From Natrinema versiforme JCM 10478 (GTDB lineage Archaea; Halobacteriota; Halobacteria; Halobacteriales; Natrialbaceae), in the NCBI RefSeq assembly GCF_000337195.1, contig NZ_AOID01000033.1, positions 1 through 64,000 on the forward strand: 64,000 nt of DNA, in the 5' to 3' direction. The translations under genes were made by a program, and so were the position numbers. The notes beneath the pieces are model-generated. The model was not told where the DNA came from, made no database searches, and saw only the letters and a program-made list of their open reading frames with translations. Shown here one piece after another: positions 47,508 to 54,906 of this stretch. Positions within the stretch are counted from its first letter, which is position 1. Every line of letters starts with the position of its first letter.

Positions 47508-47871
47508 GGGCTCGCCCTCCGCGGGGCTCGGCTGCTCGGTCTCGATGCCCGCGACGCGGAGCCGTCCCAACTGGATCGTACGTGGTGTCGCCGACAGCGT
47601 CGTCCATATCCGATACTGGGGGACGGCGGGGATTAGGCTTTCCGACCTCCGACGGTGGCCGCTTCCCGAGCCAGCGCTGATCGCGTCGATCGATCCCGTT
47701 TGCCGATCCGCTTCGGACGACTATCGCGGTGAGTTTCAGAGGCTACGATACTAGCCAGCGGGTCGCGCTGAACACGGGACGTCTCTGCAAGCCGCTCTAG
47801 GTTCGATACCCGAATCGCCCGACCCAGGAGCGTACTCTTATGAGCGTTCGGCAGACAGAGAGCAGTAATTG
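47508..47871. other. 364-bp stretch ahead of the R-M gene
   Basis: It holds the minus-strand 34-codon ORF (47503-47607) coupled to the 214-residue gene, and a TATA-like CTCTTATG (47835-47842) about 33 nt before the R-M start. The rest shows no gene. Confidence 0.35.
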
Positions 47872-50800
47872 ATGAGCAGTCAGACGACGCTGGATTCGAC
47901 GCCGTTCGATAACTCCGGTCTCTTCTCGGATCACTATCTGAAGAACACGGTTTCCGAAACGGAGCAGTGGGACTGTGATGCGGAGGCGGAAGCGGCGTTC
48001 GACGCCCTGACGGAACTCTGGGAGGCGGAACGGGACGTCGTCGATTCGTATCTCGAGTCCGAGTTGCAGGATGTGTGGATTGACGAGGTCGTCTCGCTTC
48101 TCGGATACGACGCCGTCACTGAGACCCCGATTCCGAGCGATCGAGGGCACGTCGACTACGTCTTGTTTAGTTCGTCGAGCGTCCGGCGACGCGCCCGAAG
48201 TCTCGACGACTTGAACGAGACGTACGCGAAGTCGACCGGCATACTCGAGGCCAAACAGTGGGACGCCGATTTCGAGAGCGAATACGTCGATCGGCCGTAT
48301 CGAAACGCCTCGTCGCAGATTCGCCACTATCTCGATCGAACGCCGGAACCCATCCGGTGGGGGTTCCTCACAAACGGTCGCAAATGGCGGATCTACAGCA
48401 ATCGCGTCTATGAGACGCAAATCTATTACGAGGTCGACCTCGTGGACCTCATCGAGAACGGGAGACTCTCCGATTTCAAGTACTTCTATGCGTTCTTCCA
48501 CCGGGACGCGCTGACGGGCGCGATCGGCGAATCGTTCTTGGATACGGTCTACCGCGAGAGCGAGATCTACGCGGAGCAACTCGGTGAGGACTTGCAGGAC
48601 AACGTCTTCACGGCGCTTCGCGTCCTCGGTGAGGGGTTCGTCGACTGCAACGACCTCGACGTAACGGCTGAGGGCGAGGCCGCCCGTCGAGAGCTCAAAG
48701 AGCAATCCCTCGTCTATCTGTACCGATTGATGTTCGTCCTGTACGCCGAGGGCAAGGGGCTAATCCATCCTGAATCCGAGCGGGCAAAGCGGGATTACGA
48801 GAGCGAATTCTCGCTGGAACGCATCCGCGAGGATATCGTCGAAGAAGCCGGCAGCGGCGAATATTTCGACGATTTCAGCGCTCACTCGCGGAGTTACTGG
48901 GACCGTCTCGACCGGCTCTTCGAACTGATCGATACCGGCAACGACGATCTCGGAATCCCGGCGTACAACGGCGGTTTGTTCGCCGCCGAAGAGCATCAGT
49001 TCCTCGAGGAGAACTACGTTTCGAACGACTATCTCGCGCGGGCCATCTACTATCTGAGTACGACGACGAGCGATGACGGCGACCTGATCTATGCGAATTA
49101 CGGCGATCTCGACACCCGACACCTCGGGTCGGTCTATGAGGGCCTTCTCGAACACCGATTCGAGATCGCCGAGGAACAGTTGTGGGCAGTCGCTGCCGAC
49201 GACGGGCAGGTTTGGGTTACTGAAGAAGCGTTCGCCGAATACGATGACTACATCGACACCGTCGAAGAAGGGGGTCTCTACGTTGTCAACGACGAGGGGG
49301 AACGACGGTCCACGGGGTCGTACTATACTCCGGATTACATCGTCCAGTATATCGTTTCGCAGACGCTCGACCCCCTCATCGAAGACATCAGGGAATCGCT
49401 GGAAACAGACGGGTACGAGCCGGGAACCCACGAGTATGCCGGTGAATTCTACGCGCGGGTTCTCGAGCTCAATATCCTCGATCCGGCGATGGGAAGCGGT
49501 CACTTCCTGACCGCGGTAACGAGTTACCTCGCGGATCAGGTCCAGGCGGTAACGCTCGAGGCGGATATTTCCGGCGTGATGAACGAAGAGGAGATCCGCC
49601 GCGCCATCGCCAAGGAGTGTATTTTCGGCGTCGACCTGAACGAGATGGCGGTTGAGCTGGCGAAGCTCTCGATGTGGCTGGAGACGCTCGCGAGCAACAA
49701 GCCGCTCACGTTCCTCGACCATCACTTCAAGCAAGGGAACTCGCTACTCGGGGCCGACCTGGACGACATCGACGACCTCCCCGGTTCGGACACTCGAGCG
49801 GATGTCGCGGACGGGCAAGCGACGCTCGATCCGTTCCTGAACACTGTCCAAGACACGATCGATAGTTACCTCCGAGAATACGCCGCGTTCGCTCGGATGG
49901 ACGACGACACGGTCGAACAGATCGGCAAGAAGAAAGCGAAGTACGAGGAGGAAGTCGAGGGAGAGGAAAAGCGCGAGCGGTTGGACCAACTCGCGAACGT
50001 CTATCTGGCGACCCACTTCGGCGTCGCCGTTCCCGACGATGCCTACGAGAACCTGAAGCAGGCCCTTCGCGGCGACCACGAAACCCCGTGGGAGGCGTTC
50101 GAGGAGAAGCCGTGGTTCCAACGGGCACAGGACGCGGCCGACGAGCACGACTTCTTCCACTGGAAACTCGAGTTCGTCGAGGCCTTCTACACCGACGGGC
50201 AGACGAAATCCGAACGCGGGTTCGATGCGGTCGTCGGTAATCCGCCGTACTTCAACCTCGAAACCGTGGCCGACGAGGCGTTCACCGACTGCCTCGAGCG
50301 ACGGTATCCGGACGTTTACGCCGGGAAGGCGGACATCCACTACTTCTTTTGTGGCCTCGGATTCGAACTTCTCAGAGACGGGGGACAGCTCGGGTACATC
50401 GTCTCTCGATACTTCACTGAAGCACACTATGCACGAGGGCTTCGTGAATCGCTCAGCAGCAGCGCGGACATCCACGAAATCGTCGATCTCGGGAATAACC
50501 AGGTCTTCCCCGGTGTCGATACCTTGACCGTTATTATGCGCCTCGCAAAGGGGCGACCGGTCGACGAGACGACGATTACGTATCTCCGCGACGAACTGGA
50601 GTCCGATCCACGGAAGATTCAGCAAACGATCGAGAAGATCGTCTCGGCGGAGGAAACCGACCTCGGCGGACAGTACTCGATGGCCGAGTCCTCGTTCGGA
50701 GCGGATCGGTGGGGGATTTTGCCGAAATCCATCCTCGACATCAAAGAGACGATCCGGGACGCGGGGACGCCCCTCGGGGAGAATTACAGAACCGGTCAGG

Positions 50801-52107
50801 GACTGATGACTGGCCTGAACGAGGCGTTTACGGTCTCGCCGGAAGAGATCGACGAGTGGGGAATCGAGGACGACGTGGTGAAACCCCTCGTCAAAAACGG
50901 CGATCTCAGGAAGTACGAGTACAACCCGCGAGGGCTGGACGTGCTCTACTTCGAGGGGAAGCATATCGAGGACTACCCGAACGCGATGGACTACCTCTCC
51001 CAGTACCGGGAGCAACTGGACGATCGCGCCAAGGATTCCGTCGAATGGTACGAATACCTGAACCCGATCAACAAGGAGATCTTCGAAGACGAGACGAGAG
51101 AGAAGATCATCTGTCCGTTTACGGCGACCGAGAACCGCTTCTATCTCGACCAGACCGGGCTGTACAACGATGGCGGCGACATCGAGGTGATCGTTCCCGA
51201 GGCCGACGGCGTGCCGGAAAACGAGTACGTGGCCTGTTTACTCAACTCCACGCTGTTGGAGTTCTTCCACCTCAACCACGCGAAACTGAAACGAGACGGC
51301 TACTACGAGTACTTCGGCAACTCGCTTCAGGCAATTCCGCTTATCATGTCGCCGGCAGCGACCGATGCCGATACAGCGTCCATACCGGCGGACGCGTTCG
51401 ATGCTGGCGTCCCGGCTGACATCGAAGCAGCGCTCGTCGATGTCTATCACGAACTGGTCGAACTGCTCGAGGAGCGACGCGCTCTACGCGATGCACTCGA
51501 CCCGTTCAAGTATATCTCTCGTGACGCGCCGACTGAGGACTTCGAGGCCGTCCTCGCCGAGGAACTGAAATACGCGACTCGAGTCGACGATATCGCGTTC
51601 GAGTCGCGGCACGATATCGACCGGCTCACGCTCGCGAACTCAGAAGAGTCCGATGAGTGGCTCCTCCGCGCCCGGCTGAAACTCCGCGAGGCGACGGACG
51701 ACGGGGACTACGACTGGAAACGTAACGAGGAGGGCAACGGGATCGTGCGCCGGTGGGTCGATCTCTACGAGTTCCCCGCTGATCTCGTCGATGAAACGCG
51801 ACTCGAGACGTATGTAGTCGTGTTGGATCACTACGACGAGTTCGCGAACAAGAGTCCGAAGAGCGGGTACCCCGGCGGGAAAACACGAACGGTACAGGCG
51901 AAACTGGAACGGGCGGATCTCCCGGTCGTCGACAACGCCGATCTCACGCCACACTTCGAGTTACGGGACGAGATCGCGGCTCGAGAGGCCGAGATTCGGG
52001 AACTCTATCGTGCCGTCGACGATATCGTCTACGATATGTACGACCTGAGCGACGAGGAAATCGAGACCGTTGAATCGGAAATCGGCGTCGGGTTAACGTT
52101 GGAATAG
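47872..52107 (+). CDS. Type IIG restriction-methylation protein (Eco57I-like)
   Basis: The 1411-residue single protein has an N-terminal nuclease-like region with D95 and E126-A-K128 (PD-(D/E)xK pattern), a central helical part, and an N6-adenine methyltransferase domain with motif I L-D-P-A-M-G-S-G-H-F (about residue 537) and catalytic N-P-P-Y (about 789). A long target-recognition part follows. Such proteins cut and methylate without partner subunits; no separate methylase or specificity gene is nearby. PglX of BREX has a similar methylase but would need other BREX genes, which are absent. GC is below that of its upstream neighbours. Confidence 0.88.
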   Translation: MSSQTTLDSTPFDNSGLFSDHYLKNTVSETEQWDCDAEAEAAFDALTELWEAERDVVDSYLESELQDVWIDEVVSLLGYDAVTETPIPSDRGHVDYVLFSSSSVRRRARSLDDLNETYAKSTGILEAKQWDADFESEYVDRPYRNASSQIRHYLDRTPEPIRWGFLTNGRKWRIYSNRVYETQIYYEVDLVDLIENGRLSDFKYFYAFFHRDALTGAIGESFLDTVYRESEIYAEQLGEDLQDNVFTALRVLGEGFVDCNDLDVTAEGEAARRELKEQSLVYLYRLMFVLYAEGKGLIHPESERAKRDYESEFSLERIREDIVEEAGSGEYFDDFSAHSRSYWDRLDRLFELIDTGNDDLGIPAYNGGLFAAEEHQFLEENYVSNDYLARAIYYLSTTTSDDGDLIYANYGDLDTRHLGSVYEGLLEHRFEIAEEQLWAVAADDGQVWVTEEAFAEYDDYIDTVEEGGLYVVNDEGERRSTGSYYTPDYIVQYIVSQTLDPLIEDIRESLETDGYEPGTHEYAGEFYARVLELNILDPAMGSGHFLTAVTSYLADQVQAVTLEADISGVMNEEEIRRAIAKECIFGVDLNEMAVELAKLSMWLETLASNKPLTFLDHHFKQGNSLLGADLDDIDDLPGSDTRADVADGQATLDPFLNTVQDTIDSYLREYAAFARMDDDTVEQIGKKKAKYEEEVEGEEKRERLDQLANVYLATHFGVAVPDDAYENLKQALRGDHETPWEAFEEKPWFQRAQDAADEHDFFHWKLEFVEAFYTDGQTKSERGFDAVVGNPPYFNLETVADEAFTDCLERRYPDVYAGKADIHYFFCGLGFELLRDGGQLGYIVSRYFTEAHYARGLRESLSSSADIHEIVDLGNNQVFPGVDTLTVIMRLAKGRPVDETTITYLRDELESDPRKIQQTIEKIVSAEETDLGGQYSMAESSFGADRWGILPKSILDIKETIRDAGTPLGENYRTGQGLMTGLNEAFTVSPEEIDEWGIEDDVVKPLVKNGDLRKYEYNPRGLDVLYFEGKHIEDYPNAMDYLSQYREQLDDRAKDSVEWYEYLNPINKEIFEDETREKIICPFTATENRFYLDQTGLYNDGGDIEVIVPEADGVPENEYVACLLNSTLLEFFHLNHAKLKRDGYYEYFGNSLQAIPLIMSPAATDADTASIPADAFDAGVPADIEAALVDVYHELVELLEERRALRDALDPFKYISRDAPTEDFEAVLAEELKYATRVDDIAFESRHDIDRLTLANSEESDEWLLRARLKLREATDDGDYDWKRNEEGNGIVRRWVDLYEFPADLVDETRLETYVVVLDHYDEFANKSPKSGYPGGKTRTVQAKLERADLPVVDNADLTPHFELRDEIAAREAEIRELYRAVDDIVYDMYDLSDEEIETVESEIGVGLTLE

Positions 52108-52682: not shown

Positions 52683-52904
52683 AAGCTATTTCACAATATA
52701 TCGTTGGTGTAATAATATTGGTGACACACCTAATCAGGCAGCAGACTTTGCGACTGGACTACTAATATTGATTCTTTCTTCGCTACCTGCTTGGCCTATA
52801 GTGCCCGGTTGTCACCATTTCGCGGCGGGTTCAAGAGTGGGATGTAGTTGGTAGAGAAACCGGAATGATGCGACCGGCAACCCGGTACATATATTGCATT
52901 AAAT

Positions 52905-53015
52905 ATGGATAACAGCAGTCAGGACATCAAGGTGTACGATACTCGCCGATCAGGTACAAAGTACCAGATTGAACTAATTGACAGAGCCCTTGATCCACTT
53001 CTCAATCGATATTAG
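52905..53015 (+). CDS. 36-codon ORF with a near promoter, doubtful
   Basis: The ATG at 52905 opens M-D-N-S-S-Q-D-I-K-V-Y-D-T-R-R-S-G-T-K-Y and ends with TAG at 53015. An AT-rich stretch (ATATATTGCATTAAAT, 52889-52904) precedes it. The end overlaps the end of the interrupted minus-strand gene by 14 bp. It may be a fragment of a larger gene; I cannot name it. Confidence 0.3.
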   Translation: MDNSSQDIKVYDTRRSGTKYQIELIDRALDPLLNRY

Positions 53016-53248
53016 CGATGAACTCATCTAGTGTGTCGGTGAGTTCATCGATTGATTCGCCGTCCTGCTTAGCCGAGTAGCGTATGATTATGGGATGACC
53101 AGGCGCAAAACCCCGCCTTCAGGGCGGGGATACGCGCCGTCACTGGATGACGCCCACCACCGATGACTGCACGGATGGATATTCCACAGTCGCAATCCAA
53201 ATTTTCATAATACAGGACAACATAACCTATTATGGAGACGTTTCACGA

Positions 53249-54565
53249 ATGCACGTCCATCGCACGTACCGGGCGAAAATCCGTAACCACTCACAGGTGG
53301 AGCAGATGCTCGACCTGCACGGGTGGAGTGCATCCAAACTGTGGAACGTTGCAAACTATCATTCCCGCCAAGTATGGGAGGAAACGGGCGAGATTCCCGA
53401 CGACTCGGACTTGAAGCGCGAGTTGAAAGGTCACGACAACTATAAAGGACTCCATTCTCAGTCCAGTCAGCGCGTTCTAGAGGAACTCGCTGAAGCCTTC
53501 AACTCGTGGTACGGCAAACGCAAGAACGACTCTCGTGCGAATCCACCCGGCTACCGCAAGAAAAACTACTACGACGACAACGGCAATCGTGTCCACGAAG
53601 AACACCCCCGTTCGACGGTGACGTGGAAACAGAAAGGTATCCGTCACGACCCAAAACACAACCGCGTTCGATTGTCGAAAGGTGCAAACCACAAAGAACA
53701 CCCAAGAGACTGGGACTATATCCTCGTCGAATACGAAACCCGGCCCGATGTCACCGTAGAAAACATCCAACAAGTCCGCGCCGTCTACGATACGGCGAAG
53801 GGCCGATGGGAACTCCACCTCGTCTGCAAACACGAAGTTGAAACACCTGACGCGCCCGGCACCGAAACGGCGGGCATCGACCTCGGTATCTGTAACTTCG
53901 CCGCCGTCGCGTACAGCACCGAAGAAGCCGACCTCTACCCCGGCAACCGTTTGAAACAGGACGGCTATTACTTCCCGAAGGAAATCGCCAAGTGCGACGA
54001 CTCGGGCGGTAAAGAAGCTACTCGTCTGCACGCGAAGTGGTCGGAGCGCCGCACCCACTTCTTCCACAGTCTCGCCAAACACATCGTGGAACGGTGTGTC
54101 GAACGAGGGGTGGGGCGCATCAATATCGGGAAGCTCAACGGCGTGCGTGAAGACGAGAACCGTGAGTCGAAGAACTGGGGTCGGCGCGGCAACCTTGACC
54201 TGCATGGGTGGGCGTTCGACCGATTCACGAAGATACTCACCTACAAAGCAAAAGTCGAGGGAATCGAGGTTATAGAAGTTTCAGAACGTGACACGAGCAA
54301 GACGTGTTGCGCCTGCGGTAGAGAAGACGACAGTCAGCGTGTTGAACGTGGCCTATACGTCTGCGAGGAATGTGACGCGGCGTTCAACGCTGATGTGAAC
54401 GGGGCGGAGAATATCCGCCTCGACATCAATCAACGTAACTCCGAGTCTGCCGGGCAGTTGTCCGGGGATAGGAGTACCGGCTGGTTGGCACAGCCGGGAG
54501 TCTACCTTCACGACTTGTCCCACGGATTCTCACCGAGGGAACAAGTGGTAGACTGCAAACCGTAA
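53249..54565 (+). CDS. tnpB: TnpB-family RNA-guided nuclease-like protein (438 aa)
   Basis: The ATG at 53249 (M-H-V-H-R-T-Y-R-A-K) gives the typical family start. RuvC-like residues are D211 (A-G-I-D-L-G-I), the second motif I-N-I-G294-K-L-N-G-V-R-E-D, and D382 (F-N-A-D-V-N-G-A-E-N). Zinc-finger cysteines are C353/C356 and C372/C375. It also has N-L-D-L-H-G-W-A-F-D-R-F, common in haloarchaeal IS1341 proteins. As in copy 1, the usual Glu of the second motif is Gly, although a Glu follows shortly (R-E-D). Relatives are omega-RNA-guided nucleases. Confidence 0.88.
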   Translation: MHVHRTYRAKIRNHSQVEQMLDLHGWSASKLWNVANYHSRQVWEETGEIPDDSDLKRELKGHDNYKGLHSQSSQRVLEELAEAFNSWYGKRKNDSRANPPGYRKKNYYDDNGNRVHEEHPRSTVTWKQKGIRHDPKHNRVRLSKGANHKEHPRDWDYILVEYETRPDVTVENIQQVRAVYDTAKGRWELHLVCKHEVETPDAPGTETAGIDLGICNFAAVAYSTEEADLYPGNRLKQDGYYFPKEIAKCDDSGGKEATRLHAKWSERRTHFFHSLAKHIVERCVERGVGRINIGKLNGVREDENRESKNWGRRGNLDLHGWAFDRFTKILTYKAKVEGIEVIEVSERDTSKTCCACGREDDSQRVERGLYVCEECDAAFNADVNGAENIRLDINQRNSESAGQLSGDRSTGWLAQPGVYLHDLSHGFSPREQVVDCKP

Positions 54566-54662
54566 TATCCCAACGCTGAGCGAACCGGCGGTTCGCAACG
54601 TACGCGAATCTTCGATTCGCTTGACTCGGGAATCCTCGCCCTTCAGGGCGGGGAGGATGTCA
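54499..54662 (+). ncRNA. Candidate omega RNA / sotRNA region at the 3' end of tnpB copy 2
   Basis: Nested stems AGTCTACC/GGTAGACT (54499-54506/54547-54554) and ACTTGT/ACAAGT (54513-54518/54541-54546) are followed by CGAACC/GGTTCG (54581-54586/54590-54595), GCGAATC/GATTCGC (54604-54610/54614-54620, loop TTC) and the TTCA hairpin at 54637-54650, then GAGGATGTCA. The guide would start near 54663. It overlaps the end of tnpB. Transcription is inferred from related haloarchaeal elements. Confidence 0.6.
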
Positions 54663-54906
54663 ACACGTCCTTTTGATCTGTATTCCGGGCAGTGTCAACC
54701 TGTTTGATACCCCTCCAGATACCTGTGACCTCAACGATTCCGTGTTCGTCGTGATCGTATGTTTTCTCCCGTTCAACGATGCGATCCGACTCGGGGCCGG
54801 GGCGGTCAACTGAGTCATCCATGTGAGTTCGTCATTCTATGAAACCGACAGGTGCGTTTGGCTGCGATACTCCTTGCTGGAATACGTATTGGCAAAGTTG
54901 TTATAC

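Follow-up and report, generated by a model that had tools for sequence, protein, structure and literature searches.

A tnpB-only IS200/IS605-family element inserted in a small gene of Natrinema versiforme

Introduction

The window analysed here is a stretch of 64,000 nucleotides from Natrinema versiforme JCM 10478 (contig NZ_AOID01000033.1, positions 1 to 64,000). In this window, two pieces of a minus-strand ORF, which share one frame, sit on either side of a plus-strand tnpB gene. The question is whether the pieces are halves of one gene split by a mobile element and, if so, where the element ends and how it may have been moved and retained. The original prediction had proposed a recent insertion of a tnpB element, with the removal of about 1.57 kb restoring one protein of about 82 residues.

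Interrupted small gene and empty site

In silico removal of positions 53092-54663 left an open 82-codon frame, which reads MDDSVDRP...TDQKDV and continues directly with IIIRYSAK...FIANID. The exact values are 1,572 bp and 82 aa. The 5' part of the gene (codons 1-53, MDDSV...QKDV) lies at 54664-54822 of the minus strand. The 3' part (codons 54-82, IIIRYSAKQDGESIDELTDTLDEFIANID, and the stop codon) lies at 53002-53091 of the minus strand and was assigned by its membership of the same protein family as the 5' part and by the full-length orthologue. The insertion point follows nucleotide 159 of the small gene, i.e., the boundary of codons 53 and 54. Both halves are in one frame because the element length of 1,572 bp is 524 x 3. 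The disrupted gene now encodes a product of 59 aa, in which codon 53 is followed by the element-derived residues LTSSPP and a stop.

The joined protein was searched against 29 genomes of the genus, and a full-length homologue (82 aa, 94% identical) was found in one of them. It is encoded on the 400-kb plasmid NZ_CP084470.1 of Natrinema salinisoli as LDB05_RS22245, annotated as "hypothetical protein". The DNA of this locus matches the window at 93% identity along 287 bases of one flank and 1,658 bases of the other, and lacks the element. The uninterrupted homologue, which had been named as the check on the prediction, was found at the DNA level, and together with the frames it confirmed that the two same-frame pieces belong together. 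The small gene is present in 41 of the 125 genomes of the family, a count that includes the window's own two halves. No family in the Pfam and NCBIfam profile searches covers it. It adjoins haloarchaeal regulatory genes, i.e., HalOD1, HTH_10/BAT, and Lrp.

That two unrelated short ORFs flank tnpB by chance, with no gene interrupted, has a negligible probability: short reading frames are common in this GC-rich DNA, but the two halves align collinearly with members of a single protein family in about 40 genomes, which excludes halves of two different proteins, and the full-length orthologue of the uninterrupted locus already refutes it.

The N. salinisoli join reads GAGTAGCG-CACAATGAT-CACGTCC, and the window reads GAGTAGCG-TATGATTAT, the element, and CACGTCC. 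Nine N. salinisoli bases correspond to positions 53083-53091 of the window plus the element. The lengths match to the base, therefore nothing was duplicated or lost. Left of the junction, at 53083-53091, four of the nine bases differ from the orthologue, versus approximately 7% overall, and the relatives otherwise keep C-R-ATGA-W at these positions. Among the four differences, a silent GAT to TAT change creates the TTAT target. Synteny with the N. salinisoli plasmid ends at position 52796 of the window. Past this point comes a gene similar to a BREX PglX-like methyltransferase (47869-52107) in the window and a PAS-domain gene in the plasmid.

Extent, ends and class of the element

The left ends were compared among relatives in 23 of the 29 genus genomes and 80 related loci elsewhere. 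TTAT or TTAC precedes nearly all of the relatives, and conservation starts directly after it. In the right ends of 77 loci, conservation stops exactly at TCAA (TCAC in one case), with unrelated sequence beyond. By sequence comparison, the empty site and some 60 related elements fix the boundaries at 53092-54663 on the plus strand.

The insertion proposed in the original prediction stands; its exact ends, wrong by 1 to 4 bases, do not. The left flank had been given as TATGAT (53088), whereas the true flank ends in TATGATTAT (53091); the right end had been given as GATGTCA, whereas the true end is GATGTCAA (54663). Ends placed directly after TATGAT and GATGTCA were rejected, as one codon (isoleucine) is lost and the conserved boundary is missed. 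With the corrected ends, the joined protein reads DV-III-RYS and keeps all 82 residues.

The target tetranucleotide TTAT, which is the left cleavage site (CL) and the presumed TAM, lies in the left flank at 53088-53091 of the plus strand. The left end (53107-53129, plus strand) comprises the guide AAAA (53107-53110) and a subterminal hairpin, CCCCGCC-TTCAG-GGCGGGG (53111-53129), and is indicated by guide/target covariation. The right end (54630-54663, plus strand) comprises the guide GAAT (54630-54633), the hairpin CCTCGCCC-TTCA-GGGCGGGG, and the cleavage site TCAA (54660-54663). The element is without target duplication and without inverted repeats, and is inserted 3' of a short fixed target. 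It was assigned to the IS200/IS605 family, IS1341 type (tnpB-only), by its subterminal hairpins with 5' guide tetranucleotides that pair with the cleavage sites, and by a TnpB (OrfB_IS605 plus Zn-ribbon/TNB) that scored over the cut-off in Pfam and NCBIfam.

Misassembly could in principle have placed the tnpB element inside the gene, since the genome is a draft of 72 contigs. This is very improbable, as both junctions are internal to a contig of 86.7 kb, only one copy of the element is present in the genome, with the next matches about 65% identical, and relatives inserted at unrelated sites have exactly the same ends.

Cleavage-site/guide code and probable mobilization in trans

In IS608, the cleavage sites are TTAC (left) and TCAA (right), and the paired guides AAAG and GAAT lie 5' of the hairpins (PMC5934647). 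The right pair of the window element, TCAA/GAAT, is identical to that of IS608, and the left pair, TTAT/AAAA, obeys the same pairing rule. Among the distinct left ends of relatives, TTAT occurs with A-ending guides (58/58) and TTAC with G-ending guides (9/9). The exceptions are one TTAA/AAAG and three left ends without assignment. Base 4 of the guide thus covaries with base 4 of the target, although these counts are of related sequences and not of independent events; both states occur in several guide backgrounds. At the right ends, TCAA is found with GAAT or GATT, and TCAC with GAAG in two loci (L039 and L096). Compensated site/guide changes were seen in the haloarchaeal tnpB elements L045, L027, L033, L034, L048, L039, and L096. 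At the level of sequence, the covariation is the pattern expected from selection for recognition by Y1 TnpA. It argues that the tnpB-only relatives would still be substrates of a Y1 transposase in trans.

The window element has no gene for the Y1 HUH TnpA that an autonomous copy would carry, and is therefore not autonomous. The genome has three Y1_Tnp genes, all on other contigs. One of them belongs to a tnpA+tnpB IS200/IS605 element (contig C14, locus L154, 700-2760), whose right end matches that of the window element in 31 of 35 bases (89%). A Y1 TnpA acting in trans is the likely agent that mobilized the element. In a previous study, many tnpB genes of haloarchaea were noted to occur by themselves, which is hard to reconcile with movement by tnpA only (PMC3119063).

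Because the element sits between two codons and IS200/IS605 excision is precise, it is conceivable that the small gene is switched off by insertion and on again when TnpA excises the element, while TnpB would protect the "off" state. Such a switch is considered very improbable.

TnpB, predicted omega-RNA and proposed retention

The tnpB gene was assigned to 53249-54565 of the plus strand by Pfam, NCBIfam, and conservation, and encodes 438 aa from the ATG at 53249; an in-frame upstream ATG at 53147 would give 472 aa. The protein matched Pfam OrfB_IS605 (5.6e-28) and Cas12f1-like_TNB (1e-19) and NCBIfam guided_TnpB (1.2e-60), and has two C-x2-C pairs. The position of the canonical RuvC-II glutamate is a glycine (G294), as it is in 59 of 59 relatives. 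A glutamate, E346, is invariant in the same 59 relatives at the ExxxxxxCxxC position, six residues before the first CxxC. This position was described as the alternative glutamate (Ealt), in a clade that combines Ealt with D-Phi-G in RuvC-I (PMC10711439). The window TnpB has the features of this clade, i.e., D211-L-G, E346-RDTSKT-CCAC, and D382, all invariant in the 59 relatives. The TnpB of the C14 element likewise carries the ExxxxxxCxxC glutamate.

From these residues, the protein is expected to be an active nuclease that uses D211, E346 (as the alternative RuvC-II glutamate), and D382. The glycine at the canonical position, shared by all relatives, could instead point to a nuclease-dead TnpB, i.e., a TldR-like RNA-guided binder or repressor that does not serve retention. 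This is unlikely. A TldR has lost its RuvC catalytic residues, but D211 and D382 are invariant here and the conserved E346 stands at the position used by Fanzor and D-Phi-G/Ealt TnpB; moreover, the element around the gene has both ends intact and an omega-RNA match. A role of TnpB in retention is kept as the preferred reading.

The omega-RNA (reRNA/sotRNA) scaffold was predicted at 54433-54663 of the plus strand, overlapping the end of tnpB, from Rfam RF02656 and the fold. RF02656 (sot0042), a Halobacterium transcript and haloarchaeal omega-RNA, matched over the whole model with an E-value of 1e-19 and 78.7 bits, under the gathering score of 88. The fold of the region beat 200 shuffles (z-score -5.4). 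The Rfam family HgcC (RF00062) also weakly matches the right end (54578-54676, E 2.6e-4, under the curated cut-off), a hint that the HgcC RNAs could be right-end/omega-RNAs of IS605 elements.

The 16-nt right flank CACGTCCTTTTGATCT (54664-54679, plus strand) is the presumed guide segment of the omega-RNA, by its position relative to the right end and by analogy with the ISDra2 model (PMC8612924). It matches the element's own empty site beside TTAT, the single such site in the genome. In the N. salinisoli allele the guide match is present, but TGAT adjoins it where the window has TTAT; this allele should therefore escape cutting by TnpB.

The following explanation is proposed, as a whole with a probability of roughly 0.93. 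The sequence shows the ends, the empty site, an intact tnpB, the omega-RNA match, and end signals that follow the IS608 code. A Y1 transposase supplied in trans would have moved the tnpB-only element as single-stranded DNA. The element inserted 3' of TTAT, between codons 53 and 54, and truncated the protein. TnpB with the omega-RNA, guided by the right flank, would then cut empty sites flanked by TTAT, and repair of the cut would restore the element, which would result in its retention. Against this explanation stand the lack of tnpA in the element, the DNA identity of only 88% to the nearest elements, and the four differences among the nine bases left of the junction.

Age, origin and related copies

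Neither gene half has a frameshift or stop, and the 17 codons that differ from the N. salinisoli orthologue comprise 12 silent and 5 conservative changes. A search for the element's left end in the N. salinisoli genome gave no match. The prediction that the insertion is recent is supported indirectly, by the intact halves, the mostly silent differences, and the absence of the element from the orthologous locus.

The closest elements reach 88% DNA identity and occur in other haloarchaea, i.e., at one locus within the genus (L023), in Natronolimnohabitans, and in Natribaculum. The element is single-copy in its genome, where the other tnpB genes are about 65% identical. These identities are consistent with a recent acquisition from elsewhere. 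No donor copy was found among the related elements, the best of which has the 88% DNA identity given above, and the phage records searched gave no match.

Positions 54629-54665 of the window are identical over 37 bases to the right end of a tnpB element (loci L164 and L165, 3001-3037) that occurs on many conjugative plasmids of Klebsiella, and the left hairpin regions of the two elements share 93% identity over 30 bases. The TnpB of the Klebsiella element is only about 22% identical to the window TnpB and has the canonical glutamate. Matches in 827 Klebsiella records were rejected as shared tnpB DNA, as they trace to the 37-base identity of the right end. Judged from these alignments, conservation across domains seems to be far stronger in the end sequences than in the TnpB protein.

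Comparison with known systems

The element belongs to a known kind, the tnpB-only IS200/IS605 elements, and the original reading is right but ordinary. The haloarchaeal IS1341-type elements of Natronomonas, Haloquadratum, and Halobacterium (PMC3119063, PMC12558985) likewise have tnpB without tnpA. They share near-terminal palindromes, the lack of inverted repeats and target duplication, the occurrence as single divergent copies, and a sot/omega-RNA, predicted in the window element, over the 3' end. As a rule, it is difficult to place the boundaries of haloarchaeal tnpB-only elements (PMC3119063). The window element differs in that its ends are base-exact through the empty site and the relatives, and it thus provides a base-exact member of this group together with its empty site.

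IS608 (ISHp608) of Helicobacter pylori shares TCAA/GAAT, insertion 3' of TTA-N, and hairpins beside the guides (PMC5934647). The left pair is TTAT/AAAA in the window element and TTAC/AAAG in IS608, i.e., a compensated change. In contrast to IS608, the window element is without tnpA and its TnpB has the alternative glutamate.

The TnpB of ISDra2 from Deinococcus is likewise of RuvC type with a C-terminal Zn ribbon, and shares the expectation that the guide comes from the right flank and that the TAM equals the target sequence (PMC8612924). Its sequence similarity to the window TnpB is weak (8bf8, E 2.7e-5). ISDra2 TnpB has the TAM TTGAT and the canonical glutamate, whereas the window element has the presumed TAM TTAT and the alternative glutamate. 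The sequence thus provides a predicted TAM (TTAT/TTAC) and a predicted guide for a TnpB that is archaeal and has the alternative catalytic glutamate.
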